Source: a virus. From it: DNA of 64,000 nucleotides. The number at the start of each line of letters is the position of its first letter. Position 1 is the stretch's first letter. The DNA lies in IMG/VR virus record IMGVR_UViG_3300042434_002493, positions 16,436 through 80,435 of that record. One strand, written 5' to 3'. A program made the translations under genes and the position numbers. Below the pieces are notes generated by a model. That model was not told the origin of the DNA, made no database searches, and saw only the letters and a program-made list of their open reading frames with translations. Shown here piece after piece: positions 1 through 22,589 of the stretch.

Positions 1-3000
1 TACTTCACGCGCCCGGACATCGCCGCGTCCATGTGGGATCTCCTCGCCCATCACGGCCTCGCGCCGGACGCAAAGGTGCTTGAGCCCGCGTGCGGTTCGG
101 GCGTGTTTATGCAGACCGCCCCCGAGGGCGTGACCATGACCGCCGTGGAGATCGACCCCGAGGTGGCCCTGGTTGCGTCGAGCCTGCACGGAGCCCGGCA
201 CACGGTCCACGCCCAGAGCTTCGAGGAGTTCGCGGTGGCCCGCGAGCGAGGGGTGGGCGACCGCTTCGACGCGGTCATCACGAACGCGCCGTTCTGCACA
301 CGCACCGGCGACGGGGCCCGCATCCACAAGCCCGAGTACACGAGCGCCGACGCCTATTTCGTGGACACGGCGCTCGACCAGGTGAAGGAGGGCGGTCTCG
401 TTGCGATGATCGTCCACCGCGGCGTCATGTCGAACGACGGCATGCAGGAGTTCCGGCGCCGAATCGGAGATCGCGCCGAGCTGGTCGATGCGTTCCGGTT
501 GCCCGTCGAGGCGTTCAAGCACGCCGACACCACCGTCGTTTCCGACGTGATCATCCTGCGGAAGCGCCCCGAGGTGGTCGCGACCGCGCTCGCCCGCGGC
601 GGCGAGGAAGTCGGGCGAGCCCTCGGGGTGAACGACGAAGACCTCATCTACGGCCGCTGGTTCGACGACAAGCCCGACCGCGTCCTGGGGACGGTCGGCA
701 AGGACTGGCGCGGTTCGGATCTCGTCGAGGGCAGCGCCGACGCATGCGCGCCGCTCATCCGCGCCCGCGGGGTTGCATCGTGGGCGCACGGCCCGGCCGG
801 CAAGACGATCACGGCCGAGGAGATGGCCGCGCACTCCGACGAGCGCGTGCGCGCCGCCCTGGACGCCGCGAAGGCCGACGTCGCGATTCCGACGCCGGTG
901 CGCGGCAGCCAGACGGTGATCGCCGGGAAGACGTACATCCTCACCCCGGGCGAGAGCGGGGCCCTGCGCTGGCGCCGGCTCGACAGCATCGACGACGCAC
1001 GCGAACTGCTGCACAGCGGAGACGCGGCCCTCAAGAGTGCCGGGGATCTTGCGCTGCGGTACGGGGATCTGCGCTCCGCGATGGCCCGAGGCGACTACCT
1101 GCGGGCCCGTGGCATCCGCCGCAAGCTCCAGAAGGACCTGAACGCCTGGGTCGAGAACTACGGCGTGCCCGCCAGGCACCCCGAGATCAACGCGCTCGCC
1201 GGCCAGGACGCGAACATCGCGCACCTGGTCGCCGCGGTGAATCCCGACAAGACGATGGCCGACATCCTGACCTCGGACCCGGTCATCCCGCCCGCCGCCA
1301 CCGGCGACCGGGCGGTCCCGGCGACGAGCGTCAGCGAGGCCGCCAGCCACCTCGCCACCCACAATCCCGGCCAGCCGATCACGGTCGCCAAGCTCCGCGA
1401 AGCGTTCCCGAGCACGGCCGAGGACGATGAGATCGTCGCCGGCCTGGTGGAGAGCGGCGAGTACGTGGACGCCCGCGGGGCCTTCGGTGTCGAGAGCGAC
1501 GCGCCTGGTGTCTTGCACGCGGACGACTACGCGAGCGGGGATCTCTTCGCTCTGCGCGACCACGAGTTCGAGCAGGCCGCGAGCGAGGACGACGCGACCC
1601 GCCAGCGCGCCGAGGCCCGCCTTGCCCTCGTGCAACGCCACATCGACGAGCGGTGGCGTCCGCTCGACCAGGTCGAGGTCTCCGTCCGCAGCGGGTGGAT
1701 TCCGCCCCACGTCATCGAGGCGTGGCTCAACAGCCCCGACGTGATCGCCGACTGGCACAAGGCCAGTCAGTTCAAGGTCACGGAGGCCGGGGGCGTCTAC
1801 ACGGTCTCCTACTTCGACGAGGCCAAGGGCAAGCGCGTCAAGCACAGCGGAGAGCCGGACCACGTCCCCGCCCGCAACATCCTGCGCTACATGAACCGCC
1901 TACCCCTGCACGGAGAGCGAGCCCGCGACGAGGCCGAGGCTGAGGACGAGAAGTTCCGCTCGTGGCTCGCCTCTTCGGACCTCCGAGGGGACGTCGAGGA
2001 GATTTACAACCGCCGCTTCACCGGGCAGGTCCCGAGGCGTTTGAACAGCACGCCGATGAAGATCGACGGGTTGCAGAAGGAGTTGTGGCCCTACCACTAC
2101 GAACAGATCCGATGGAACACAGACCGCCGGGGCGGGATCGTCGCGATGGACGTCGGACTGGGCAAGACGTTCAACACCATCGCAACCGCGCGCCAGATGC
2201 GCGTCACAGGCCAGGCCCGCAAGGTGGCCGTCACCTGCCCGAAGTCGGTGATCATCAACTGGAGCAAGGAGATCGAGGACCTGCACCCGGGCGCGAAGGT
2301 CATGATCGTGGGGGCGACGAGCAAGGAGAAACCCAAGAAGACCTGGCGCGACCCCACCGTGCCCGAGTACGTGGCCGTCACCGACAACGACGAGACCTTG
2401 ACGAAGAAGCTCGCCGACATCGCCGCCAACGACTACGACCTCGTTCTCTTCACCTACGAAGCGCAGGCCCGCATCCCCGTCCGCGACGACAACGTCACGC
2501 GCTTCGAGGGCGATGATTTCTGGTCTCGACGAGCGTCGAAGTTGAGCGACAGCGAGGCCACGGTCGCCCAGTCCGCCGAGACCCGCCAGAAGAAGCTCGC
2601 CCAGGCGCTCGCCTCCTACCAAGCCGAGCGCGCCAAGCTCGGTTTCAACGTGAAGCAGTCCATCATCCACTGGGAGGATCTGGGCATCGACACGATGTTC
2701 GTGGACGAGGCCCACAACTTCGCCAACCTCGGGAGCCCGCGCTCCCGAGGAGGGCAGGTCAAGATGATGGGGAGCAGCTCCGACAACGTGAAGCGGGCTC
2801 ACGACCTGCAATTGAAGGCCGCTCTGGTGCGCGAGCGCCGCAAGCCCGACGAGACCGACGACGCCTACCAGCGCCGCATGGACGAGAACAAGGAGCAGGG
2901 CCTCGGCGTCAACGGCAACGGCGTCTTCATGCTGACCGCGACGCCTGCGAAGAACAGCCCGATGGACGTCTACCACCTCATGCTCCAGGCCACCCCGCAG

Positions 3001-4956
3001 GTCTGGCGCGAGGTCGGCGTGCGCAACCTCGAAGAGTTCATCGACCGCTACGTGGACATCGAGGAGCGGCCGATCATCAACACCGAGCAGAAGGCCGAGA
3101 TGGCGAACTGCGCGGTCGGATTCAAGAACCTCATCGAATTGCGCGCGGTCATGGAGCGCGGACTGAGGCGCCGCACCGCCAAAGAGGTCAACCTCAAGGT
3201 GCCGCAGACCGAGCGCGAGGAGCACCTCGTGGACATGACGCCGCAGCAGCACAAGGCGTTCCGCGACATCCGCGACGAGTTCGAGCGCCGCAAGCTCGAC
3301 AAGGACGAGCGGGTCGCCAATTCCGCGACCCTTTGGCTTCTGCACCAGCTCAACGCCGCCGGCACCGATCTGTCCCTACTCTCCGATGAGCACCCAGAGC
3401 ACGCGGGCGAGTGGCGGCACAGCCCGAAGTACCACGAGGCCGTGGGCACCATCGTGAAGAACCTCAAGAGCGGGCGTGGCGGCCAGGTCGTATTCATCGA
3501 CCGCAACGCCAGCCACACGCACATGAAGAATCTCCTGGTGGAGGCAGGCATCCCCGAGAGCGAAATCGAGATCCTGAACGCCACGACCGCGGCCGACGCG
3601 GACAAGCGGTACGCGGTCAGCGAACGCTTCAACCTGGGCAAGACCCGGGTCGTCATCGGGAACACCGGGACGATGGGCGAGGGCGTCAACCTCCAGAAGA
3701 ACACGAGCGATCTGCACCACCTCGACCTACCGTGGAGCCCCGGCAAGTACCACCAGCGCGAGGGCCGCGCCGTCCGACAAGGCAACAAGTACGGCAAGGT
3801 GCGGATTCACACCTACTTCTCGAAGCGCAGCTTCGACAGCTACCGCCACGCCATCTTGAGCGGCAAGCAGGGGTGGGTCTCGAACCTGTACAGCGGAGGC
3901 GATTACGCGGAGAACACCGAGGAGGGGGAGGACTTCAGCCCCGAAGAGTTGCAGATCATGTTGGCCGACGACCCCGACGAGGCCCGCAAGGTCTTCGAGG
4001 CGAACAAGGGGGCCCGCGTGGCCGCCCTCCAGGATGCGGCCCGCGCGAAGGCCATGCGCGACTGGCAGGGAGTCATCAAGCGCCGCAGCGCGCTGGCGAA
4101 GATGGCCGACAAGACCAGTCACGCGGCCCGGCGCCTCGAAGACACCATCCGCCTCGACACCGCGCGACTGAAGCGGGTGACGGAGTTGCCCAAGCCGCTG
4201 CGCGCCGCGCTCGACTCCGACCTCCCATGCGTCGCCGTGCCCACCACCGGGGCGATCATCAAGGTCGGCGACGTCATCCTCCCGAAGAACGGCAACGTGC
4301 TCGAAGACGCGCACGTCGTAACCGACGTGGACCCAGTCAAGGGCGCGGTCTCGATTCGACCGTTCGGCCGCAAGCGCCCCGCCTACTACGGCAAGCACAC
4401 TCTCACAGCGGCCGAATTGCCGGCCTACGTCCACCACGAGGGCCCGGAGACGGAGGCGGACGCTTACAGGCCGCAGGTCCGGGAGAAGCTCGCCGCTGCG
4501 GCGAAGTTCCCGACGCTGGCCGGGCACGACCTCGCAGAGATGCGAGACTGGCCGGAGGCGATCCGGCGCGAGTTCGAGCCCGAGGCCCGACAGATCGCCG
4601 CCGCCGCCGTCTCGCACGTCAACCCATACGGCCACGTTTTCGTGCGCCATGGCGACACAGTGAAGGCTGTCCGCGGCGACAGCCCGGAGGCCAAGAACGC
4701 CGCCCCCCTTCTACCGTGGGGCGAAGACCGCGAGGCCATCCTGCGGGGCCTGGTGACTCACCTGCGCACCGAGGGCAAGAAGCAGGTGGTCACGCAGGGC
4801 AAGCGCGGCTCCATGAATTACACCGGGCGCTACGAGTACCAGCCGAGCTACGAATGGAAAAATGCTCACGCCCGCGTCGTCGGCGGGCGGGGAGACGACT
4901 ACGGGCTTGAGCAGGAGGCCATCAGGCGCATCCACCAGGAGGACCAGGCGAAATGA
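1..4956 (+). CDS. DarB-like DNA adenine methyltransferase-SNF2 helicase (5' truncated)
   Basis: The reading frame is open from base 1, before the first ATG at 31, so the gene starts outside the window. Residues before that ATG (YFTRPDIAAS) fit the FTP-type entry into an N6-adenine methyltransferase. Counting from the ATG, motif I is LEPACGSGVF (17-26) and the catalytic motif is NAPF (85-88), a variant of the usual NPPY/F. A helicase follows: Walker A GLGKT at 709-713, DEAH at 892-895, TATP at 969-972 and motif VI QREGRAVRQG near 1243. This methyltransferase-helicase fusion is the architecture of phage P1 DarB, an injected protein that protects DNA from restriction. The stop overlaps the next gene (ATGA). 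The architecture is secure; the antirestriction role is inferred. Confidence 0.85.
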   Translation, partial: YFTRPDIAASMWDLLAHHGLAPDAKVLEPACGSGVFMQTAPEGVTMTAVEIDPEVALVASSLHGARHTVHAQSFEEFAVARERGVGDRFDAVITNAPFCTRTGDGARIHKPEYTSADAYFVDTALDQVKEGGLVAMIVHRGVMSNDGMQEFRRRIGDRAELVDAFRLPVEAFKHADTTVVSDVIILRKRPEVVATALARGGEEVGRALGVNDEDLIYGRWFDDKPDRVLGTVGKDWRGSDLVEGSADACAPLIRARGVASWAHGPAGKTITAEEMAAHSDERVRAALDAAKADVAIPTPVRGSQTVIAGKTYILTPGESGALRWRRLDSIDDARELLHSGDAALKSAGDLALRYGDLRSAMARGDYLRARGIRRKLQKDLNAWVENYGVPARHPEINALAGQDANIAHLVAAVNPDKTMADILTSDPVIPPAATGDRAVPATSVSEAASHLATHNPGQPITVAKLREAFPSTAEDDEIVAGLVESGEYVDARGAFGVESDAPGVLHADDYASGDLFALRDHEFEQAASEDDATRQRAEARLALVQRHIDERWRPLDQVEVSVRSGWIPPHVIEAWLNSPDVIADWHKASQFKVTEAGGVYTVSYFDEAKGKRVKHSGEPDHVPARNILRYMNRLPLHGERARDEAEAEDEKFRSWLASSDLRGDVEEIYNRRFTGQVPRRLNSTPMKIDGLQKELWPYHYEQIRWNTDRRGGIVAMDVGLGKTFNTIATARQMRVTGQARKVAVTCPKSVIINWSKEIEDLHPGAKVMIVGATSKEKPKKTWRDPTVPEYVAVTDNDETLTKKLADIAANDYDLVLFTYEAQARIPVRDDNVTRFEGDDFWSRRASKLSDSEATVAQSAETRQKKLAQALASYQAERAKLGFNVKQSIIHWEDLGIDTMFVDEAHNFANLGSPRSRGGQVKMMGSSSDNVKRAHDLQLKAALVRERRKPDETDDAYQRRMDENKEQGLGVNGNGVFMLTATPAKNSPMDVYHLMLQATPQVWREVGVRNLEEFIDRYVDIEERPIINTEQKAEMANCAVGFKNLIELRAVMERGLRRRTAKEVNLKVPQTEREEHLVDMTPQQHKAFRDIRDEFERRKLDKDERVANSATLWLLHQLNAAGTDLSLLSDEHPEHAGEWRHSPKYHEAVGTIVKNLKSGRGGQVVFIDRNASHTHMKNLLVEAGIPESEIEILNATTAADADKRYAVSERFNLGKTRVVIGNTGTMGEGVNLQKNTSDLHHLDLPWSPGKYHQREGRAVRQGNKYGKVRIHTYFSKRSFDSYRHAILSGKQGWVSNLYSGGDYAENTEEGEDFSPEELQIMLADDPDEARKVFEANKGARVAALQDAARAKAMRDWQGVIKRRSALAKMADKTSHAARRLEDTIRLDTARLKRVTELPKPLRAALDSDLPCVAVPTTGAIIKVGDVILPKNGNVLEDAHVVTDVDPVKGAVSIRPFGRKRPAYYGKHTLTAAELPAYVHHEGPETEADAYRPQVREKLAAAAKFPTLAGHDLAEMRDWPEAIRREFEPEARQIAAAAVSHVNPYGHVFVRHGDTVKAVRGDSPEAKNAAPLLPWGEDREAILRGLVTHLRTEGKKQVVTQGKRGSMNYTGRYEYQPSYEWKNAHARVVGGRGDDYGLEQEAIRRIHQEDQAK

Positions 4957-5273: not shown

Positions 5274-8200
5274 ACCCCGCCGCCCTGTTGCTCCAGCTCC
5301 AAGCCAACCGGGAAGCCGGCAAGGCCATCGACCGCAGCGACACCGCGACCGCATCCCTGCTTCCCGCGCTGGACGCCGCCGGTGACATCGACCACGGCGG
5401 GCGGCTCCACGCCGAGATGCGAACGGACAAGCGCGGGCGGACCCAGCATCGGCACGTCCGATGGGAGGAATTGAAGGGCGAAGACCTGGTTCACCAGGGC
5501 TACGTCAAGGCAGGCAGCCCCGCCGCGTTCGAGGCCCTGGGGGGGGACGAGTTCGCCGATCCGTCATGCGCGCGGTGCGGGGCACGGATCAAGCACGCCT
5601 ACCTGACCAACCACGGGCCCCTGGGGGGCGACTGCCTGGCGACGTTGACTGGCGACGACAGTTCGCGCGCCGCGGCGCGCCGGTTCGTGGAGAAGCTCGA
5701 CAAGGCGCAGGACAGCGCCCACCGGAGCAAGCGTACCCTGGCCGTTCTGACACTCAGCTTCGACCAGCACGCCGGCCAGATTCGTGCCGACTTCCAGCTC
5801 ACCAACGGCCGCCCGTGGTACGGCGCCGCTGGTGACGCTCGCCACGCGGTCATGTTCCACGCCGCCGCTTCCCAGTGGGCCGAGGCCCGAGGCTTGGAGG
5901 TGGACGAGCATCTCTCCGGGGACGAGAGCGCGCTCGCCGCCGCCAAGCGCATCGCCAGGGAGCGCCGGGCCGAGTTACAGGCCCGTGCCACCAGCAAGGC
6001 CGAGCAGGAAGTAGCCCGCATCCGCAGCGAGTCCCTCCGCCGCCTAGACGGCGTCCTGGCATTCCTGAAAGCGCCGCAGAACTACCGCCGGGCGCCCGTC
6101 GAAGCCGACTGGTTTTTCGGGCCCCTGAAAGCCCAGGCGGCAGACGCGATCCGAGAGCAGGTTGGCTTCCGCGTTCGCAGGTTCCGCAACAGTCGCGGCG
6201 ACGAACTGACGGAGGTGTCCGCGCGTCAACAGGGGCGCGGCCCCATCGTCGGCATGTTCCCGCCCGACGACTACGACGACCTCATCGACCGAATCCAGAG
6301 CGCAGGCTTTGAGGTGGAGAGCCAGGAAGCCGCCAAGGCCCTGCCGCTCGACCCCCCGCCGCAGGTCCGCCGGCCGCAGGAGCACCACCACCACGGCAGC
6401 GTGAAGGTGCCGGGTCTGCCGACGGTGGACGTCGAGACGCCCGAGGGCACCGTGCGCCGGGGAAAGGGCAAGGACGGGGAGCCGTGGGCCGTGCTCATGC
6501 CCGCGCACTACGGCGAGTTTCGCGGCACGCTGGGCGTGGACGGCGACGCCGTGGACGTGTTCGTGGGCCCCGAGCGCGACGCGCCGACCGCGTGGGTCAT
6601 CCGCGCGAAGGACCCGACGACAGGACGCTACGACGAGGACAAGGTCATGGTGGGGTTCGCCACCCGCACCGAGGCCATTCGCACCTTCCGCGCCTCGTAC
6701 AACGTGCGCGGCGTGCTGGGCGAGGTCACGGGCGTCCCGGTCGCCCGTCTTGGGGCGCTCCTCGCCGATGCGAGGCACCGCGGTCTCCCGCTCAACATGC
6801 ACAAGGCCGAGAGCCGCGAGCCGCCGCCGGCCGGGCCCGACTCTTCCCTGGACGACGCCTGGCGACGCCTGGAGCATGTCCGCCAGCAGATCGCCGAGCT
6901 GGCCGACACGCACGAGGGGGGGAAAGCCATCGACAAGAAGGACACCGCCACCACGAGCATGTTCGACCTCATGGGCGTGGGCGATCCGAGCCACGCCGGC
7001 CGACTTCACGAGGAGACCCGGACGGACGCGACCGGGCGCACCCAGAAGCGGTGGATCGCGTCGCAAGAGGCGGAGCCCGAAGGCACCATCCGGCATGGCG
7101 ACCTTGTTTCGCGCCCCGCCACGGTGCGAAGTGAGCACGGCGAAATGATGGGCGGTTCTGGCAACGCCTACACCCCAGACGGCGAGGCGTTGATCGCGCT
7201 CCCGCAACCGGGATTCGTGATCGGTGACGTGGAGATCGACGCAGCGCACCGTGGAAAGGGCCACGGACAGGCCCTCTATCTCCGGGCGATGGCCGAGCAC
7301 GGGAGGCTCTACTCCTCGTGGCCAGTGAGTAAGGATGCGTTTCGCGTTCACGACGCCCTCGTCCGCAAGGGTCTGGCCACGCGCCGCAACGTCGAGACCG
7401 ACGGCACCACGTTCACCGTTCTGGAGCCGACTGGGCAAGCCACGACGCCGCCCGAGGGTCTGGTGCAGATCGGCGAGCGAGCGCCCCGCGGGCGCGCGCC
7501 GACGCCCACGACCCCAGGCATGCGCGCCCAGGGCCGTCTCGACGGACTGGGCCACGAGCCGAGCCCGCCGCCGGCTCACCCCGAGCCGTCTCTGCGCGAC
7601 TACGACACGATCCTGGTGAACAGCTCCGCCGGCAAAGACAGCCAGGCGATGCTCGACTACGTCGTCGCGAAGGCGCGCGCCGAGGGTGTGCTCGACCGCG
7701 TCGTCGTCGTGCATGCCGATCTGGGCAGGGTCGAATGGGAAGGCACACGCGAGCTGGCCGAGGCGCAGGCCAAGCACTACGGACTGCGCTTCGAGGTGGT
7801 GACGAAGACCAAGGGCGACCTCATCGAGCAGATCGACCAGCGCGCCGTGGACCTTCAGCAGCGCAGTCACGACGCGGCCACCCTCGCCGCGGCCGGGTTT
7901 CGCACTTGGGGCGATCTGGCGGGGGCGAGCGCCGAGACACTGGCCGGGCTGATCGGCAAGGCCCAGGCGGACGCAGCGCAGCCGACCGAGGAGCGAGCTG
8001 CCAAGCTCAAGCAGGCCGCAGAGCGCAAGCTCAAGGGCGGCAAGGCCGCGACAGACCCGGTGGACTTCGGCAAGGAGATCGCGTGGCCGTCGAGCGCGTC
8101 GCGCTACTGCACCTCCGACCACAAGCGCGGTCCCATCCGCACGCTCATGACGCGCCTGACCAGCGAGTTCGACCGCAAGGGCGCGCCGGTGCGCATCCTG

Positions 8201-9799
8201 AACTGTATGGGCCTGCGGGGCGACGAGAGCAGCAACCGCGCCAAGATGCCGACGTTCGAGCACGACGACGCGGCGAGCAACGGCAAGCGTCATGTGGACG
8301 AGTGGTTGCCGATCCACCACTGGAATGAGGGCGACGTCTGGCGCCGCATCCGCGACGCCGGCACCCCCTACCACGGCGCCTACGACCTCGGGATGCGCCG
8401 GCTTTCGTGCGTGTTCTGCGTGTTTGCCACCCGCGACGACCTGAAGATCGCCGCCCACGCCAACCCGGCCCTGTTCCGCGAGTATGTCGCCCTGGAGCGC
8501 CGCGTGGGGCACAAGTTCCGGGCGGACCTCGCGCTGGCCGAACTGCACGACGCGATGGCCGCGGACGACGACCGCACCGAGGCATCGAAGGCCGCCGAGC
8601 AGATGCGCCTCTTCGGTGACCCGACCCACGGCGGCCACCTGCACGTCGAGGTCCGCACCGACAAGAGCGGCCGCACCGAGCGCCGCCACGTCCGCACCGG
8701 CTCGTTGCACACCGAGATGGGCCACGCGGGGGCGCCCGCGCCAGGCGAGCGCGGGCACATCACCCTCACGCCCGAGCGAGCCGAAGCCGAGCGCCGGGCC
8801 GGCAACATCATGGAGCACGTCGGGCGCATCTTCGACGGGGGCGAGGTACACCTCATCGAGGGCGCCATGCACGACGCCGGGCACACCCGAGAGTGGGCGC
8901 CGGACGAGAGCGGGGACGAAACTCCGTTGACCATTCGAGACGACGAGCTGCCCGGTCTGCTTGGGATGCCCGAGTGGAGCCCGGAGGACGCCGCCGACGC
9001 TGTTGCTCTGGTTGCCGATTCAACCGCGCACGGTGGGGTCATGCCCGGCGCCGTCGTGCGCGAGGTATTGGCGGACGCCATCGCGCCGGCCGGCAAGCTG
9101 CGACTCGTCAACGTGTCGCTCGACGAGGCCCGCGACTTTGTCGCCAAGCACCACAGCCAGATGCCCGAGATGAACCCCCGCGGGCTGATCTACGCCGTGG
9201 GGTGCATGAAGGGCGGGCGCCTGGTGGCCGTCGCGACCGCCGGCACGCCGACCGGGCGATGGGGCAACGGGCGGGTGGACCCGCGCAACATTCTGGAGCT
9301 GACCCGCATCGCGTCCGACGGCACCACGAAGGGGGCGTCGTCGAAGCTCGCCGCGCGCATGATTGACCTCCTCGACCGCTCCAAGCGGGGCGACGCCGAT
9401 GCCCCCGCGCTGTTCGTGACATACAGCCTGGGGACCGAGGACGGCACGACCTACCGCGCGCTGCGAGAGAAAGGTCTGCGACCCGTGGCGCTGGTCCACG
9501 GCAAGGCCGCCGGTGGGGGCGGGGCCCGGTCAGGCAACCGCCTGGGATACGCCGAGCCCGACAAGATCCGATGGGAGGCCGGCGCCGCGGCAGGCCCGGC
9601 CCGCTGGGATCTGCTCGAAGGCGCGAAGGCCGGACCCATCGCCAACGCCCCCGGCACTGATCCGCTACTTCCGCCCGACGAGGCTGCCAAGAGCTTCGGC
9701 GTCGTCGTCGCGTTCAAGGCCATCGACGAGGCAGATCGGGCAATGGCCCGAGGTACTGCTCCAGGTCGCCCTGCGGTTCAAGTAGCCGCGGGCGATTGA
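5270..9799 (+). CDS. Giant multi-enzyme polyvalent protein (InPase, GNAT, PAPS reductase, XF1762-like)
   Basis: A 1509-residue multidomain protein. Residues 75-120 hold a Cys cluster (CARCGARI, then GGDC). Residues about 381-505 match the phage pyrophosphatase-like domain (YGEFRGTLGVDGDAVDVFVG). Residues about 630-715 look like a GNAT acetyltransferase (VEIDAAHRGKGHGQALYLRA). Residues about 775-1105 are a PAPS-reductase/DndC-type ATP pyrophosphatase with the P-loop variant NSSAGKDSQ near 783 and a CVFC pair. Residues about 1277-1405 follow the XF1762-type pattern (SLDEARDFVAKHH, LELTRIASDGT, TYSLGTEDG). A 26-residue motif recurs at 38, 571 and 1116, near the starts of modules. This build is typical of the 'polyvalent' proteins that phages co-inject. 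Substrates are unknown. Confidence 0.8.
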   Translation: MNPAALLLQLQANREAGKAIDRSDTATASLLPALDAAGDIDHGGRLHAEMRTDKRGRTQHRHVRWEELKGEDLVHQGYVKAGSPAAFEALGGDEFADPSCARCGARIKHAYLTNHGPLGGDCLATLTGDDSSRAAARRFVEKLDKAQDSAHRSKRTLAVLTLSFDQHAGQIRADFQLTNGRPWYGAAGDARHAVMFHAAASQWAEARGLEVDEHLSGDESALAAAKRIARERRAELQARATSKAEQEVARIRSESLRRLDGVLAFLKAPQNYRRAPVEADWFFGPLKAQAADAIREQVGFRVRRFRNSRGDELTEVSARQQGRGPIVGMFPPDDYDDLIDRIQSAGFEVESQEAAKALPLDPPPQVRRPQEHHHHGSVKVPGLPTVDVETPEGTVRRGKGKDGEPWAVLMPAHYGEFRGTLGVDGDAVDVFVGPERDAPTAWVIRAKDPTTGRYDEDKVMVGFATRTEAIRTFRASYNVRGVLGEVTGVPVARLGALLADARHRGLPLNMHKAESREPPPAGPDSSLDDAWRRLEHVRQQIAELADTHEGGKAIDKKDTATTSMFDLMGVGDPSHAGRLHEETRTDATGRTQKRWIASQEAEPEGTIRHGDLVSRPATVRSEHGEMMGGSGNAYTPDGEALIALPQPGFVIGDVEIDAAHRGKGHGQALYLRAMAEHGRLYSSWPVSKDAFRVHDALVRKGLATRRNVETDGTTFTVLEPTGQATTPPEGLVQIGERAPRGRAPTPTTPGMRAQGRLDGLGHEPSPPPAHPEPSLRDYDTILVNSSAGKDSQAMLDYVVAKARAEGVLDRVVVVHADLGRVEWEGTRELAEAQAKHYGLRFEVVTKTKGDLIEQIDQRAVDLQQRSHDAATLAAAGFRTWGDLAGASAETLAGLIGKAQADAAQPTEERAAKLKQAAERKLKGGKAATDPVDFGKEIAWPSSASRYCTSDHKRGPIRTLMTRLTSEFDRKGAPVRILNCMGLRGDESSNRAKMPTFEHDDAASNGKRHVDEWLPIHHWNEGDVWRRIRDAGTPYHGAYDLGMRRLSCVFCVFATRDDLKIAAHANPALFREYVALERRVGHKFRADLALAELHDAMAADDDRTEASKAAEQMRLFGDPTHGGHLHVEVRTDKSGRTERRHVRTGSLHTEMGHAGAPAPGERGHITLTPERAEAERRAGNIMEHVGRIFDGGEVHLIEGAMHDAGHTREWAPDESGDETPLTIRDDELPGLLGMPEWSPEDAADAVALVADSTAHGGVMPGAVVREVLADAIAPAGKLRLVNVSLDEARDFVAKHHSQMPEMNPRGLIYAVGCMKGGRLVAVATAGTPTGRWGNGRVDPRNILELTRIASDGTTKGASSKLAARMIDLLDRSKRGDADAPALFVTYSLGTEDGTTYRALREKGLRPVALVHGKAAGGGGARSGNRLGYAEPDKIRWEAGAAAGPARWDLLEGAKAGPIANAPGTDPLLPPDEAAKSFGVVVAFKAIDEADRAMARGTAPGRPAVQVAAGD
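5381..5458 (+). repeat. Module-boundary motif, copy a
   Basis: Encodes residues 38-63 of the 1509-residue protein. The pattern is G-D-x-x-H-x-G-x-L-H-x-E-x-R-T-D-x-x-G-R-T, with 13 positions invariant over four copies in two genes. It is preceded by GKAIDRSDTATASL, which is repeated before copy b. This copy lies ahead of the Cys-cluster and pyrophosphatase-like region. Confidence 0.8.
6980..7057 (+). repeat. Module-boundary motif, copy b
   Basis: Encodes residues 571-596 of the 1509-residue protein (GDPSHAGRLHEETRTD and on). The preceding GKAIDKKDTATTSM matches the segment ahead of copy a, so about 45 residues are duplicated in all. It lies just before the GNAT-like module. Confidence 0.8.
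8615..8692 (+). repeat. Module-boundary motif, copy c
   Basis: Encodes residues 1116-1141 of the 1509-residue protein (GDPTHGGHLHVEVRTD and on). It follows QMRLF, which resembles a sliding-clamp-binding pentapeptide. It lies between the PAPS-reductase-like and XF1762-like modules. Confidence 0.8.
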
Positions 9800-9824
9800 G
9801 CCGCGGCGCGGCGCAGGGTACAAC
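9796..9824 (+). promoter_or_regulatory. Candidate leaderless promoter before the 2831-residue helicase
   Basis: TTGAGC (9796-9801), a 17-base spacer and TACAAC (9819-9824), each matching consensus at 4 of 6 positions. The next ATG begins six bases after the -10, so a transcript would start at or next to the start codon. There is no good Shine-Dalgarno sequence before that ATG. The -35 overlaps the stop codon of the preceding gene. Confidence 0.4.
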
Positions 9825-9830
9825 GGCCGC

Positions 9831-12800
9831 ATGGCCCAGCCCGCGCAGCTCAACATTTTCGGCGGTCAAGATCCCATCCGCAACGGCGGCGATCCTTCGC
9901 ACGGCGGGGCCCTTCACCAGGAGCGGCGCACCGACAGCCGAGGAAGGACCGAGACGAAGTGGGTCCGTGACCCCAACGACCGACGCACCGTGGACTTGGA
10001 GAAGCTGATCGCACTCAAGGAAATGGGCCGCCGGGTGGACCGGCCGACCCTGTTCCGGTGGGCAGCCGGCCGGGTGAAGCACGACCCGGACACCTGGACG
10101 GCCTACCGCAAGTCCACAGCCGAGGAGACCCGCCAGGAAGGCGAGCAAGAACTGCGTCGCCGGTACGCCTGGCATCAGACGTTCGGCGAGCACACGCCGT
10201 TTCACCCCGCAGCGATGAGCGATCACATCACCGGCAGCTTCGAGGCGGAGGCCGCGAAGGCCGTCACGTTCTACCTCGCCGTGATCTTCGCCGAGGGTGG
10301 CAAGGCCGGCCCCATCGCCAACCGGCCGGGCCTGGTATTCGACTACATGAGCCGCCGTTGGAAGCGGGTCGAGCCCCACGAGGAGGGCGTTCACCTCGAC
10401 GAAGAGGCCGGGCAGGCTCACGTCGTCCCTTGGAAGCCGAAGCGCGACAAGAATGAGACGATGAGCCAGGAGGACTGGCAGGGCTTCATCGACGACGCGA
10501 ACGAGCCACTCCACGAGCGGGCCGCGAAAATGAACGCCACACTGGCGCACTACAAGGCGGGGCACCTGGAGTTCAAGAACCCCAGGGGCGACGGCCACGC
10601 GGTCATCATCCCGGATGCGAGCGAGCCGGGCCGCTGGCGTTACTCCGAGTACGACAAGAGTGGTTTCTCATCGCACACGACTCACGACACCCCAATGCAG
10701 GCCGCCGCCGCCGCCGGGGAGGCCGGTTTCACCGAGCCGGCGCCCGGCAGCCTGGATCGGCTTTCGCAGACCGAGGAGTGGGATCGCGGGACTCGCTCCG
10801 CCAAGATCAACCAGCTTGGCGGAGAACTGAACTGGAAGGGGCACCACGAGGCCGACCTGGCGGTGCGCAATCACTACGCCCGCCACGGCTGGAGCGCCGA
10901 AGCCTACCAGCGCATCATGCAGCCCGACGTCCTGGCCGCCGTCCGCGCCGGCCAGGTGCATCCCGAACTGCTCAAGGCCATCGCCGATCACCGCGAGGGT
11001 TTCAAGGCCGCGCCGAAGCTAGACTTCGGCGAGACGGCCCCGTCCGGCGAGCGGTGGATTACCGTCCGCCCCAACGGACCCGACGCCAAGGGTGTCCCGG
11101 TCCTGGTGCAGGTCCACCCCCACAACCCGCGCCAGGGCCACATCATCGGCGGCGCCGGGGGCAAGATGAACCTGCGCCGGCTCAACCTCAAGACCCCGGA
11201 GGAGTACCGGGCCGCCGCCGCCGCGCGACGCAAGAACCGACGCAAGAGCGAGAGCACGCAGGTTGACACAGGCCAGAGGGCCGCGCTCGAAGAGGTCAAG
11301 GGCGAGCACCAACAGCGCCGCAGGGCCGCCGCCGCCCAGGTACTCCGCCACGCCGGGCATCACGAGCTGGCCGACAAGATCGCCGCCGGCCCGCTGGCAG
11401 GCCAGGAGAGCGAGCACAAGGAGGCCGTCGCCGACGGCTACCGCAAGGTTCGCGTGCTCATGGCCAACGCCCGCCGAACGCTCGCCCAGGACACCGACGC
11501 CCGCGAGGCCGCAGGTCTGGGGGAGCTTCCGGCGACGAGCGGAGACGGGGGAATCGGGGCGAGCGACATCGCCGGCAGGCAGGTCATGCAGGGGGGCCTC
11601 GACTACAAGCGCGACCGGGCCGCCCTGAGCGACCAACAGGCCGATCTCGCCCGCGCCCAGGCCCTTCGCTCGCGCCTGGACGCCGATCTGCAACACGGCG
11701 AGCCCATCGACGCGCTCACCACAGCGCAGCGGTACGCCCGCGCCGCGAACCTTACCCACCGCGACATCGAGGCCGCGGGCCCCGTCGAGATCGCCGCGTT
11801 CGCCCGGCTGGCCAGCCGGCGCCTGAAAGCGTTCCGGCGGCTCCAGGAGGCCGTCACCGAGGCCGGCGGGGACAACACCGCGCCCACCATGCCCGACGAG
11901 GCTCGCGAGGCGATGGACGACATGGCCGCGGTCGTCAGCGGCAGCGGGCAGGATGCCATCGACGCCATGACCGATCCCGCGCGGAACGAAACCGCGCGCA
12001 AGGGACTACAGGCCGCCGTGGACCACGGCCTCATGGACCCGCAGCGCGAGCGGGACATGACGGCCCGTATCGAGCAGGCGCGCCGACAGTCCGCCGGGGC
12101 TCCCGAGCTTTCGCAGCTCAACCAGGAGCACGTCGAGTCTCTCCCGGCCCGCGCCATCGCCATCGTGGCCAACGACGCCGCGCACGCGATCCGCCGCATG
12201 CGCACCGCGGCCCCCGAGGATCTGCGCAAGCTCGCCGAGCAGGTGGGCGAGGAGGTGCCGACCATCAAGGGCGCCGCCGATGCGCTCGGCGAAGAGGCCC
12301 TGATCTCCGGCGAAGCCACCGACGCACAGCGCCGCTCGTTCTTGCGCCAGGCGCTCGCGTCCGGCGTGCTCACCGGCGACGCCACACCGCCGAAGGCTGC
12401 CGCCGATCCGTCCCTCGAAGTGAACGACGGGGCAAAGGCCCGCGCGATCTTCGAGGCCGGGTTGAAGGTCAAGGGTCTCGACAAGGAGGCCCGGCGCCGC
12501 CGCAACGCCATCATGGCCGGAGACCTGGCGGGCGCCGCCTCGCAACAGTGGGAGGCCCCCCGCGGCGGAGCCAACGACCCGACGCAGCAGCTCGCCGACC
12601 ACCCTTCGACCGAGATGGTCGCCGCGGTGCAAGGCGAGGTCCGCACCCAGCGCGCCCGCGCGTTTCTGGGGCAGGTCAATCAGACCTACCAGGACATCGG
12701 CCAGATGCTCGACGAGGACCAGGACGCGGCGCACGCCGATCTGGGCCGCCACATGAGCCGGGGCAGCTTCGACGCGGTCAACCACCACGCTCAAGAGATC

Positions 12801-19207: not shown

Positions 19208-20239
19208 ATGCGCGCGACCCCACACCAGAGCCACGTTGAATACAGCCATGCCCACGCCGACGTGGACATCGAGCTGCTCACGCGCCGCGTGGCCGTGTTC
19301 GACGGGTTCGAGGCGTTCAAGGCCGCGACCGGCGAGTTGCCGATGCACCGGCCGGACCTGAAGCGGGAGCGCCGCGATGGCGCCGACGTCTGGACGCGCA
19401 ACGGCATCATCGTGCCGCACCCGGACAAGGTCCGCTGGTTGTGGGCGCGTTTCAGCGACCCGTCGCCGGACCTCGAAGGCGAGAGTGTGTCCGCCGCGCC
19501 GTTCCGCCAGTTCGCCGACGACAGCGTCCGCAAGTGGGGCGGGTGGATCGACATGAACCACTGGTCTCGCCCTCAGCGGTTCCCCGAGCAGATGGCCAAG
19601 GCCGGCCGGTCCCCCGAAGAGTACGTCATCGGCAAGCTCACGGAGATCCGTGTGAGCGGCGACGACACAAGCTACGCCGAGGGCTACCTCTGGCCCGAGG
19701 GCGTCAACGAGCACGCCGACACCGCCGCCGGTTGGCTCCGGTACGCCCCCGACATGGTCCACTGTTCCGCCGGTGGGCCCATCGTGAAGGGGCACCCGCA
19801 GATCGTCGGTGGCCGCAAGGTCGTGCCCGTTCAGATTTTCCTGAACCACCTGGCCATCGCGCTCCAGGGTGTTCACAACGAGACCGCCGTCAAGACCACG
19901 CCCTTCGGGGAGTTCTACAAGGCACTGGCCGATGGGATCTCCGAGACCGAATGCGCGGGTGACAGCAGTTTCGCCAAGCACGTCCGCGGCATGCCCGAGG
20001 GCACCAAGGCCATGACGGCCGCCGCCGTGGCGCCCGCCGTGCCCGAGGATCTGGAGGGCGCCAAGACCACGAAGCCGGCAGGCCCGCGAGACGTGACCGA
20101 CGTGACCGACTGCGACCACTGGATCGCCGGCACCCGGAAGTTCCATTCCACCGCCGCCGCGCACGAACACCTGACGCGATGTTGCGGCTGGCCAGCGACG
20201 CGCGCGCGCGATTACCTCGCCGCCGCCACCCGATCCTGA
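19208..20239 (+). CDS. Probable prohead maturation protease
   Basis: A 343-residue protein directly upstream of the scaffold and capsid genes, where phage prohead serine proteases normally lie. Features that fit: a histidine in MNHWS (H118), a serine in HCSAGG (S187), and a following strand LNHLAIALQG near 220, like the conserved end of HK97/U35-type proteases. It would cleave the scaffold and capsid N-termini during head maturation. The C-terminal 100 residues are Ala/Pro-rich and end in a Cys/His-containing tail. GAGGAG stands before the ATG. The assignment rests on context plus these motifs and is not certain. Confidence 0.6.
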   Translation: MRATPHQSHVEYSHAHADVDIELLTRRVAVFDGFEAFKAATGELPMHRPDLKRERRDGADVWTRNGIIVPHPDKVRWLWARFSDPSPDLEGESVSAAPFRQFADDSVRKWGGWIDMNHWSRPQRFPEQMAKAGRSPEEYVIGKLTEIRVSGDDTSYAEGYLWPEGVNEHADTAAGWLRYAPDMVHCSAGGPIVKGHPQIVGGRKVVPVQIFLNHLAIALQGVHNETAVKTTPFGEFYKALADGISETECAGDSSFAKHVRGMPEGTKAMTAAAVAPAVPEDLEGAKTTKPAGPRDVTDVTDCDHWIAGTRKFHSTAAAHEHLTRCCGWPATRARDYLAAATRS

Positions 20240-20253
20240 AGGAGACGACCCCT

Positions 20254-21063
20254 ATGTCCAACACCGTCGAGTCCATCCAGCGCAACCTCGCCGTACTGCG
20301 TGACGCGCTGCCCGAGGGGGCCAAGGCGATGCCGCCTGGCATGCCTCCGATGGGCGCCCCCCCCGGCGGCGCCCCGCCTGGCGGCGCTCCCGGGCCGAGC
20401 CCCATGCCCGCGCTCCCCGGCTCCCCCCCGCCCGGCATGGGGATCTCGCCCCCGCCCCCCACCCCCGAAGGGGACGAGGAGGAGAATCCCGAAGGGGACG
20501 AGGAAGAGAATCCCGAGGACGAGGAGGGCACCAAGGCTTTCTACGAGGGGTGCAAGAGCGCCGAGTGCGGTCGATGCTTGCCGTGCATCAACGCCGAGGC
20601 CGAGAACGAGGGCGCCAAGTCCTACCAGGACGGCCAGGCCGCCGCCCAGGTCGGCAGCACCGTGCTCGCGCGCCTCATCGAGGGCGCCGTTCACGCGGCC
20701 GTGGGGTCGCGCCTGCGTCGCATCGAGCGGCAGCTCGAAGCCGTCGCGCAGGGCGTGGACGGCAACCTGACGCTGGGGCTCAAGAGCGCCGAGAGCCTGG
20801 GCGCTCTGCGCCGGGCCCCCGGCGTGCTCCCCCGCGGCCCCGGCGTCGCGGTCGCCAACGCCCGTGGCGGGAATCCCGCGCCGGGCGTTCACCTGCCGCC
20901 TCCGGTCGAGGAGGGTGGTAAGTGCCCCTACAACGAGCAGCAGCTTCTCATCGCCGTGCAGAAGGGCGTCCTGACGGGCGCCGAGGCGCAGCTCTGGATG
21001 AACCGTGACCAGCCCCCTGCCCGTCTGCGCAACCCCGTCGAAGCCGTGAAGTCCGTCCTCTGA
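20254..21063 (+). CDS. Probable scaffold/head assembly protein
   Basis: A 269-residue protein between protease and capsid genes, the usual scaffold position. The N-terminus is helical; residues 25-70 are Pro/Gly/Met-rich (PPGGAPPGGAPG); two copies of an acidic EGDEEENP unit follow; then a Cys cluster at C100, C105, C108 and C111, odd for a scaffold. The middle (about 120-185) is helical with RLRRIERQLEAVAQG, typical of coiled-coil scaffolds. AAGGAGA lies just before the chosen ATG at 20254. It could instead be a capsid-associated structural protein. Confidence 0.55.
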   Translation: MSNTVESIQRNLAVLRDALPEGAKAMPPGMPPMGAPPGGAPPGGAPGPSPMPALPGSPPPGMGISPPPPTPEGDEEENPEGDEEENPEDEEGTKAFYEGCKSAECGRCLPCINAEAENEGAKSYQDGQAAAQVGSTVLARLIEGAVHAAVGSRLRRIERQLEAVAQGVDGNLTLGLKSAESLGALRRAPGVLPRGPGVAVANARGGNPAPGVHLPPPVEEGGKCPYNEQQLLIAVQKGVLTGAEAQLWMNRDQPPARLRNPVEAVKSVL

Positions 21064-21101
21064 GGCCACAGGCCCAATTTCAGAAAGAAGGAGAGAACAG
21101 C

Positions 21102-22589
21102 ATGAACACCCCCGCTGGCCTGTACCTGCCGCTCACCCCCGACCTCATGCACCTGGTCGGAGGCGAGCAGGGCCTCAAGGCGATGACCGCCGAAGTCGGC
21201 AGCCGCGCCATCAACGTCATGGGCGCCGTCCCCGAGAACCTGGAGATGCAGGCGCACGTCGCCCTCTGGGATCGCGACGACCTCCGCCTCCTCCGCGAAC
21301 TGCCGAGCGTGGACGCCGAGAGCATCTCGCACGAGTTCGGCGTCGTGGACTCCTACGGCAACGTGCAGGGCACCTCCCTGTTCGCGCCCGAGGGCGGTCT
21401 CGGCATGCAGACCGGCTACAGCCTGGCCAAGCTCATGACGCGGATCGTCACGCTCCAGCTCGTGAACAAGGTGACGGGCACCGCCCGCGCGCAGAAGACC
21501 ATGTCGGTCCTGGGGAGCACGGATGCGCTCGTGAGCAACCGCGAGGCGATCATGAGGAACTTCCTCATGGTCAAGTCCATCGCGACGATCCACGCGCGAG
21601 CCGGCGCCTCGACCTCGACCCTGCGATTCTCCGGTCTCCTGGAGCAGTTCCAGGTGCGCAACCAGTCCGCGGACTTCGCGCACCGGCTCTACTCCTGCGA
21701 CCCGACCCTCGTCATCGACAAGCGCGGCACCTGGATGAACCGATCCGACGTCAAGAGCGCCGGCACCCAGATGTACAAGAACGGGTGGGGCAAGCTGAAC
21801 CGGATCTTCATGACGCCGGAGACGAGCGAGAACTTCCAGGGCGAGGTGGAGACGAACTTCCCCATCGAGCGCGCGGACATCAAGGACATCGGCGACAACG
21901 GTCTCATCATCGGTGCGACCATCGCCGGCATCCGTCACCAGGGCGGCGTCGCCCTGTTCATGACGGACAACAGCTTGGACCCGGGCCTCACCCACGGCGA
22001 GTTCAAGGGCGATCCCCCGCCCAACAGCCCGGTGCGCCCCGACGCCCCCACCATCGTGACCGCGAACAACGTCGCCAACTCGAAGTGGGAAGCCATCGAC
22101 GTCCCCGCTGACGCGGGCGTGATCAAGTACAAGGTGTGCTTCGAGAACGACTTCGGGCCCAGCCAGCCCAGCGTCGCGTCGGCCGGGACCAACCCGGTCG
22201 CCGGGTGCCGCCAGCGCCTCACGATCAACACCCGCGCCGACGCCAAGAGCGTGAAGATCCTGCGCAACAGCGCGCAGCGTCCGACCGAGTTCTACGTCAT
22301 CGGCGAGATCCCCAACAGCGGCGCCGTGCTCACGTTCGACGACCTGAACTGGAAGATCCCCGGTTCCGCCGTGGCCATCGGCCTGGAGATGATGTACGGC
22401 AAGAGCCAGACGAACCGGCTCAACGCCCGCGCCCGGGACAACGCGGTGCGCTTCGCGCAGCTCGAAGAGATGCACAGCGTCCCCCTCGCCAAGATCGGCG
22501 ACTTCGACTGGGAGATGATCATCGAGCGCACCGCGCCCGAGCTGGTCCAGAAGCTCCGCATGGTGGTCTGGGAGAACATCGGCCGCTAG
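21102..22589 (+). CDS. Major capsid protein with Ig/FN3-like insertion
   Basis: A 495-residue protein with a very strong ribosome site (AGAAGGAGAG). Position after protease and scaffold, length, and a Met/Arg-rich middle (HRLYSCDPTLVIDKRG) suit an HK97-fold major capsid protein. Residues about 303-414 (from PPNSPVRPDAPTIVTANN to TFDDLNW) read as a beta-sandwich, Ig- or FN3-like, including YKVCFENDFGPSQPS. That domain interrupts the capsid chain and probably projects from the head surface. The C-terminus (ERTAPELVQKLRMVVWENIG) resumes the core fold. It ends with TAG, uncommon here. Confidence 0.75.
   Translation: MNTPAGLYLPLTPDLMHLVGGEQGLKAMTAEVGSRAINVMGAVPENLEMQAHVALWDRDDLRLLRELPSVDAESISHEFGVVDSYGNVQGTSLFAPEGGLGMQTGYSLAKLMTRIVTLQLVNKVTGTARAQKTMSVLGSTDALVSNREAIMRNFLMVKSIATIHARAGASTSTLRFSGLLEQFQVRNQSADFAHRLYSCDPTLVIDKRGTWMNRSDVKSAGTQMYKNGWGKLNRIFMTPETSENFQGEVETNFPIERADIKDIGDNGLIIGATIAGIRHQGGVALFMTDNSLDPGLTHGEFKGDPPPNSPVRPDAPTIVTANNVANSKWEAIDVPADAGVIKYKVCFENDFGPSQPSVASAGTNPVAGCRQRLTINTRADAKSVKILRNSAQRPTEFYVIGEIPNSGAVLTFDDLNWKIPGSAVAIGLEMMYGKSQTNRLNARARDNAVRFAQLEEMHSVPLAKIGDFDWEMIIERTAPELVQKLRMVVWENIGR

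Follow-up and report, generated by a model that had tools for sequence, protein, structure and literature searches.

Candidate prohead protease sites upstream of a repeated, predicted hairpin tag in the giant proteins of a phage

Results

We analysed a 64,000-nucleotide stretch (hereafter the window; bases 16436-80435) of the 80,435-bp virus record IMGVR_UViG_3300042434_002493, from a tailed phage not in culture, in which two giant proteins encoded close to head genes carry repeated copies of a 26-residue element, the tag. Positions are those of the window, where all features described lie on the + strand, unless record positions are given. The first giant, P0001 (5270..9799), is a 1509-residue polyvalent protein with the order tag, InPase, tag, GNAT/PAPS reductase, tag, Mom-like module; the second, P0002 (9831..18326), is a 2831-residue polyvalent protein with an SF2/SNF2-type helicase close to its C-terminus. 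Translation places GDIDHGGRLHAEMRTDKRGRTQHRHV at 5381-5458 (residues 38-63 of P0001; type A hairpin), GDPSHAGRLHEETRTDATGRTQKRWI at 6980-7057 (residues 571-596, preceding the GNAT/PAPS-reductase modules), GDPTHGGHLHVEVRTDKSGRTERRHV at 8615-8692 (residues 1116-1141, preceding the Mom-like module) and GDPSHGGALHQERRTDSRGRTETKWV at 9888-9965 (residues 20-45 of P0002, the helicase polyprotein). These four copies had been noticed in an earlier note made from the sequence alone, and all of them are real: the pattern H.G.LH.E.RTD..GRT occurs four times in P0001 and P0002, against 6e-10 expected from composition alone. The count was too low, since searches of the whole record found six good copies and a degenerate one. 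The two extra good copies lie at the N-termini of a 1093-residue protein (record 9614) and of a zeta-toxin-like kinase (record 12844); the degenerate copy, GDPTHGGHLVERVIFTKAGHQQTFHV, lies near the N-terminus of a 2385-residue methylase-helicase, which starts upstream of the window (record 14234 onward), has its C-terminal part at 1..4956 and contains one more weak candidate later in its sequence. The 1093-residue tagged protein (L009; record 9473-12754) is rich in Ala, His and Lys and has no family match.

Six positions (D14, H17, G19, L21, D28 and G31) are kept in an alignment of 14 tag copies. H-x-E is present in all six good copies of the record, and LHxE is kept neither in the degenerate copy nor in that of L020, a low-GC phage locus described below. 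The GKAID-x3-DTAT block that the earlier note had pointed out does precede two copies. AlphaFold places two strands and a turn over the tag (block pLDDT 86-89), which is thus predicted to be a short beta-hairpin.

The record has the gene order terminase, portal, MuF-like protein, tagged genes, candidate protease, candidate scaffold, major capsid protein and tail sheath, so that every tag copy falls in the portal-to-protease block. The name MuF-like is our own reading of a 419-residue gene product following the portal, which has no family match. Like the polyvalent proteins described elsewhere, the giants combine several enzymatic domains of the described set within one polypeptide, and their genes adjoin virion genes, with terminase and portal upstream and capsid and sheath downstream; they may be packaged and delivered into the host with the DNA. 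The placement of modules proposed earlier is broadly right: P0001 matches InPase (Pfam PF18823), PAPS reductase (PF01507) and a Mom-like module (phrog_1384), and the GNAT module gives a weak match only (E 0.17). The Mom-like DNA modification module (8893-9799) occupies the last third of P0001 and adjoins the PAPS-reductase module, with which it may form a DNA-modification set. The earlier view of the tag as a repeated element at module edges also holds; the tag is limited to putative virion-packaged giants next to head genes and recurs in giants of related phages.

Internal tags lie 12-31 residues past another motif, E-[GA]-x-K-[AS], and the remaining tags are at or near protein N-termini. We compared a hand-made list of head-region proteins (portal tail, prohead protease, scaffold, giant proteins etc.) with terminase, capsid and tail proteins, and found 22 occurrences of the motif in 9,856 residues of the former against 0 in 8,017 residues of the latter. 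Shuffled head-region proteins had a mean of 1.4 occurrences and a maximum of 7 in 2,000 shuffles. The portal tail and the MuF-like protein have one site each, the protease has two and the scaffold five; the remainder lie in the giant proteins and the kinase. In an unguided scan of all three-residue spaced patterns, E..KA ranked first and E-G-x-K second; Lys-Ala alone was not enriched.

In P0001, each of the three tags starts no more than 30 residues past a site (permutation p 0.0009), and the recognised domains contain no sites. With a slash marking the bond that we predict to be cut, its sites are EAGK/A (5312..5326; residues 15-19), 23 residues upstream of tag 1; EAAK/A (6326..6340; residues 353-357), directly upstream of the InPase module; EGGK/A (6914..6928; residues 549-553), 22 residues upstream of tag 2; EASK/A (8579..8593; residues 1104-1108), 12 residues upstream of tag 3 and followed by QMRLF; EGAK/A (9617..9631; residues 1450-1454), upstream of GPIANAPG (type B boundary); and EAAK/S (9680..9694; residues 1471-1475), followed by the C-terminal peptide SFGVVVAFKA. 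P0002 has candidate sites EAAK/A and EGGK/A (10248..10307; residues 140-144 and 155-159), the second preceding GPIANRPGL (type B boundary), and EGFK/A (10995..11009; residues 389-393), about 13 residues upstream of GERWITVRPNG (type C boundary). Internal tags are preceded by E-[GA]-x-K-A, in many cases with a QLxLF-like block of five residues or SMFD in between; the methylase-helicase starts with the site EGLKA, QLALF, QLDLF and its degenerate tag.

Two boundary types other than the tag occur past candidate sites, and both recur in relatives: GPIANRPGLxxD...RW (10293-10350 and 9617-9670) and GERWITVxPxG...IIGGAGGK (11030-11180). Hydrophobic C-termini follow the last site in P0001 (SFGVVVAFKA; 9680-9799) and in the portal (GGFLVFE; record 8120-8212). 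They resemble the portal tails of cultured relatives (SFGFPVFKPEP) and may be C-terminal loading peptides lost on cutting.

The candidate prohead maturation protease (343 residues; 19208..20239) carries sites of its own at 19310-19324 and 19997-20011. It is followed by the candidate scaffold (269 residues; 20254..21063), with its five sites, and by the major capsid protein (phrog_752; 21102..22589), the N-terminus of which carries QGLKA. The order portal, protease, scaffold, capsid is thus found here (19208-22589) as in relatives; in this phage, portal and protease are separated by effector genes. The candidate protease had no direct PHROG or Pfam match. Its residues His118, Ser187 (within CSxGG, here CSAGG) and His214 are invariant in three phages, and its likewise invariant N117-H118 and S187-x-G-G align with DIDH and SVGG, in keeping with the DxxH and SxGG contexts of the catalytic His and Ser in this type of protease. 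The candidate aligns with the proteases of the relatives Dolphis and PHB04. These two proteases match the head maturation protease family phrog_1028 (1e-23 and 4e-70, respectively) and reach SPO1 gp3.2 by tblastn. The link between them and our candidate is weak (hhalign E 3e-4, probability 38%) because each side of the comparison holds only two or three sequences. The C-terminal part of the protease (19997-20050) and the N-terminal arm of the capsid protein (21168-21240) share a segment past the site (KAMTAAAVAPAVPEDLE versus KAMTAEVGSRAINVMGAVPENLE), and in PHB04 and Dolphis a different segment is shared at the same place of protease and capsid.

The capsid protein gives the firmest anchor for reading the motif as a cut site, and capsid chains in the PDB suggest which bond would be cut. 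The PHB04 capsid protein matches a protein labelled only “Major capsid protein” in the PDB table, which we assume to belong to Staphylococcus phage 812, present as a 463-residue chain (5lii) and a 439-residue chain (9row, 9rox, 9roz). The shorter chain is the same sequence offset by 24 and starts at Ser25, after Lys24. The Lys24-Ser25 bond (VVK/S) aligns with Lys36-Ala37 (LQK/A) of PHB04, its K-[AS] site, and the EQGLK/AM of our phage is placed like the K24/S25 start of the 439-residue chain. Since the motif is restricted to head-region proteins and aligns with the start of this short chain, we read K/A or K/S as the probable site of the maturation protease. A cut after Glu, in E/[GA], had first been preferred by analogy with T4 and SPN3US; this option and a cut after Lys-Ala, in the style of herpesvirus assemblin, were both dropped as the phage 812 chain pointed to Lys/Ser.

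Sites and tags are also combined in relatives. A contig with a protease 88% identical to ours (G001) has 18 E[GA]xK[AS] occurrences in its head-region proteins against 0 in the comparison set of capsid, tail and terminase proteins, and every internal tag comes after a site. In a Myxococcota contig with a protease 46% identical (G003C1), the scaffold has sites EPGKAM, EPGKAL and ETGKAI, the first two at positions matching this phage, and the protease has EPGKG. Five cultured relatives, the Pseudomonas putida phage Dolphis, Touem01, ST4, phiT5282EW and the Thermus phage Lalka8, have 11-15 occurrences of [LMFVI]xK[AS] in portal, protease and scaffold, against 1.6-2.7 by shuffling; their tail proteins show background levels, except in Dolphis (11 versus 5.3). 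Several effectors of cultured relatives start with a leader, xKA and a hairpin: VIVFLKA-QVAGYTRQDGTVVSPYYR and MIILLTKA-QLALF...GAHVRKDGTVVKPHIR in PHB04, MDLMKA-HVKGYSRKDGTYVPPHER in ST4 and MTKLFLKA-QVKGYRRSDGVWVKPH in phiT5282EW, beside which a DarB-like effector of Lalka8 starts with MDLVRLYQELLAKA-EQPALF. The layout is not universal among effectors, as the PHB04 phosphatase does not have such a leader, and the first 80 residues of P1 DarB contain no leader-site-tag arrangement. A profile search, a check already suggested by the earlier note, matched PHB04 hypA, a portal-adjacent protein with a recognisable tag, at E 4.5e-4 (best reversed decoy 0.39). It returned no Lalka8 match, and we therefore count the hairpin of Lalka8 as no more than a resemblance; tblastn of the tag against cultured phages and plasmids gave no significant match. 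The InPase has a gene of its own, with a leader site at the N-terminus, in PHB04 and in the Myxococcota contig, but is an inner module behind EAAKA in P0001; the inner sites consequently look like former N-termini.

Pattern scans of genome collections and viruses yielded mostly chance matches, the real ones being L008, L010 and L018 (all G001), the near identical L007, L020 and L057. L057 is a 42-kb contig from a Myxococcota metagenome-assembled genome (CAUJDF010000001) with the same gene block and three QLGLF repeats before the tag, which may hint at the host or be a binning artefact. L020 (4249-7917, - strand) encodes a polyvalent protein of a low-GC phage in which a helical repeat of about 30 residues (xxIxKAFxxEQIsxxxFxxYL) occurs three times, two of them then followed by hairpin-like segments.

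Discussion

Our analyses suggest, with a probability of about 0.62, that the giant proteins are polyproteins cut in the prohead and that every effector so released has the tag as its N-terminal region. Each giant would comprise hydrophobic leader and tail peptides plus internal linkers bearing E-[GA]-x-K-[AS]. Once the giants are enclosed in the prohead, the maturation protease encoded just downstream would cut after the Lys of these linkers, and would also cut the scaffold, the portal tail, the capsid N-terminus and itself. P0001 would yield enzymes of approximately 37, 21, 60 and 37 kDa (zinc/Cys module, InPase, GNAT plus PAPS reductase, and Mom-like module), all of which except the InPase would start with a short linker and the hairpin tag, the latter beginning no further than about 30 residues from the newly formed N-terminus. 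Leader and hairpin probably also act as a loading signal; for the hairpin itself we favour a role in loading or ejection, with clamp recruitment as an alternative option. We take the motif for the cut site because its carriers (protease, scaffold, portal C-terminus and, with QGLKA, the capsid N-terminus) are usual substrates of prohead proteases. Among the functions imagined earlier for the tag, proteolytic release is thus the best-supported one, with the correction that the tag is probably not what is cut: the candidate is the motif upstream of it, which also occurs in scaffold, protease and portal proteins that have no tag.

Several observations weigh against this polyprotein model. The tags of P0002 and of the kinase are N-terminal and have no preceding site. 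EAxKA can arise in alanine-rich helices, so that a few of the 22 occurrences may be false (e.g. EALKA in the MuF-like protein); furthermore, the five-residue motif was spotted by eye before counting, and a large number of three-residue patterns had been tried. The homology of the protease is remote, the hhalign probability being only 38%, and its AlphaFold prediction (pLDDT 33) gave no usable model. The status of the 439-residue chain as mature form is taken from its length, and cleavage in our phage is deduced from sequence.

The restriction of tags and motif to head-region proteins would also suit uncleaved docking motifs that bind the scaffold or inner capsid, the cargo being injected whole. 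We consider this unlikely, because a shortened homologous capsid chain starts where the motif aligns, and because the protease itself carries the motif and the scaffold has five copies of it, as would be expected of cut sites. The tags might otherwise be relics of gene fusion, left without a role since the modules were genes with an N-terminal hairpin of their own. The separate InPase of relatives and the N-terminal tags of stand-alone genes speak in that direction; yet internal copies share key residues with N-terminal ones and the adjacent site is kept in two phages, so that this history, which would explain the origin of the arrangement and is compatible with cleavage, does not account for the conservation of unused parts and seems to us quite improbable as a full explanation. 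The poorest candidate is a cut within the tag, after the Glu of L-H-x-E, comparable to the x-x-E sites of T4-like and phiKZ-like phages. It has in its favour the H-x-E kept in the six good copies, the cleavage of ejected SPN3US proteins after A-x-E (PMC10052503) and that of the P1 capsid protein between E120 and S121 (PMC9024508). However, conservation covers 26 residues on both sides of the Glu, over a hairpin in the model, and LHxE is lost in the degenerate and L020 copies. We rejected the tag as a Glu-type cut site because the scaffold, protease and capsid of this phage do not contain its sequence, which makes such a cut very improbable.

The peptides adjoining the tags (QLALF, QLDLF, QLNIF, QMRLF, QLGLF) deserve separate consideration. 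QLxLF-type peptides occur four times in head-region proteins against 0.1 expected; in three copies of the record SMFD or LLPAL stands in their place, and a further copy lacks both kinds of peptide. The bacterial sliding-clamp-binding consensus is QL[SD]LF, which QLDLF, QLALF and QLNIF resemble by sequence match. It is conceivable, although doubtful, that the capsid protease dices the giants into tagged enzymes and that, after injection, the freed QLxLF plus hairpin brings each DNA-acting enzyme to a sliding clamp, of host or phage origin, on DNA that is entering the cell or being replicated.

The polyprotein model bears on a general problem of phage biology, the loading of very large multi-enzyme proteins into heads and their passage down a narrow tail. 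If it is true, the giants would travel as polyproteins, be processed within the head and enter the host as separate enzymes that mostly share an N-terminal tag, and the injected effectors of this clade could be predicted by a simple rule from the shared cut site. Such a site may have escaped notice because Lys/Ala or Lys/Ser cuts resemble ordinary tryptic ends in standard proteomics. Iyer et al. (2017, PMC5512222) have already proposed that peptidases release domains from the polyvalent proteins found in phages and conjugative elements, in analogy with viral polyproteins; our giants are similar to those proteins in bearing InPase, PAPS reductase, GNAT, methylase-helicase and zeta-type kinase modules beside head genes. 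In the available portions of PMC5512222, PMC9024508 and PMC10052503, we found no description of a site that scaffold and giants have in common and that recurs in one polypeptide ahead of a conserved hairpin. Processing is ascribed in the accessible part of PMC5512222 mainly to embedded zincin metallopeptidases, whereas here it would depend on a separate prohead protease with a site apparently common to scaffold and portal. The tag also recalls the T4 capsid targeting sequence, which the T4 prohead protease removes, and the 30-residue N-terminal packaging signal of P1 DarB (PMC9024508), short N-terminal signals on injected proteins of antirestriction type. In contrast with them, our element is repeated inside one polypeptide, and its conserved hairpin is predicted to be retained on the product. 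Finally, as in T4, phiKZ/SPN3US and P1, a short consensus recurs in capsid, scaffold, portal and ejected proteins, but those proteases cut after Glu, whereas the phage 812 (Herelleviridae-type) capsid chain suggests cleavage between Lys and Ala or Ser here.

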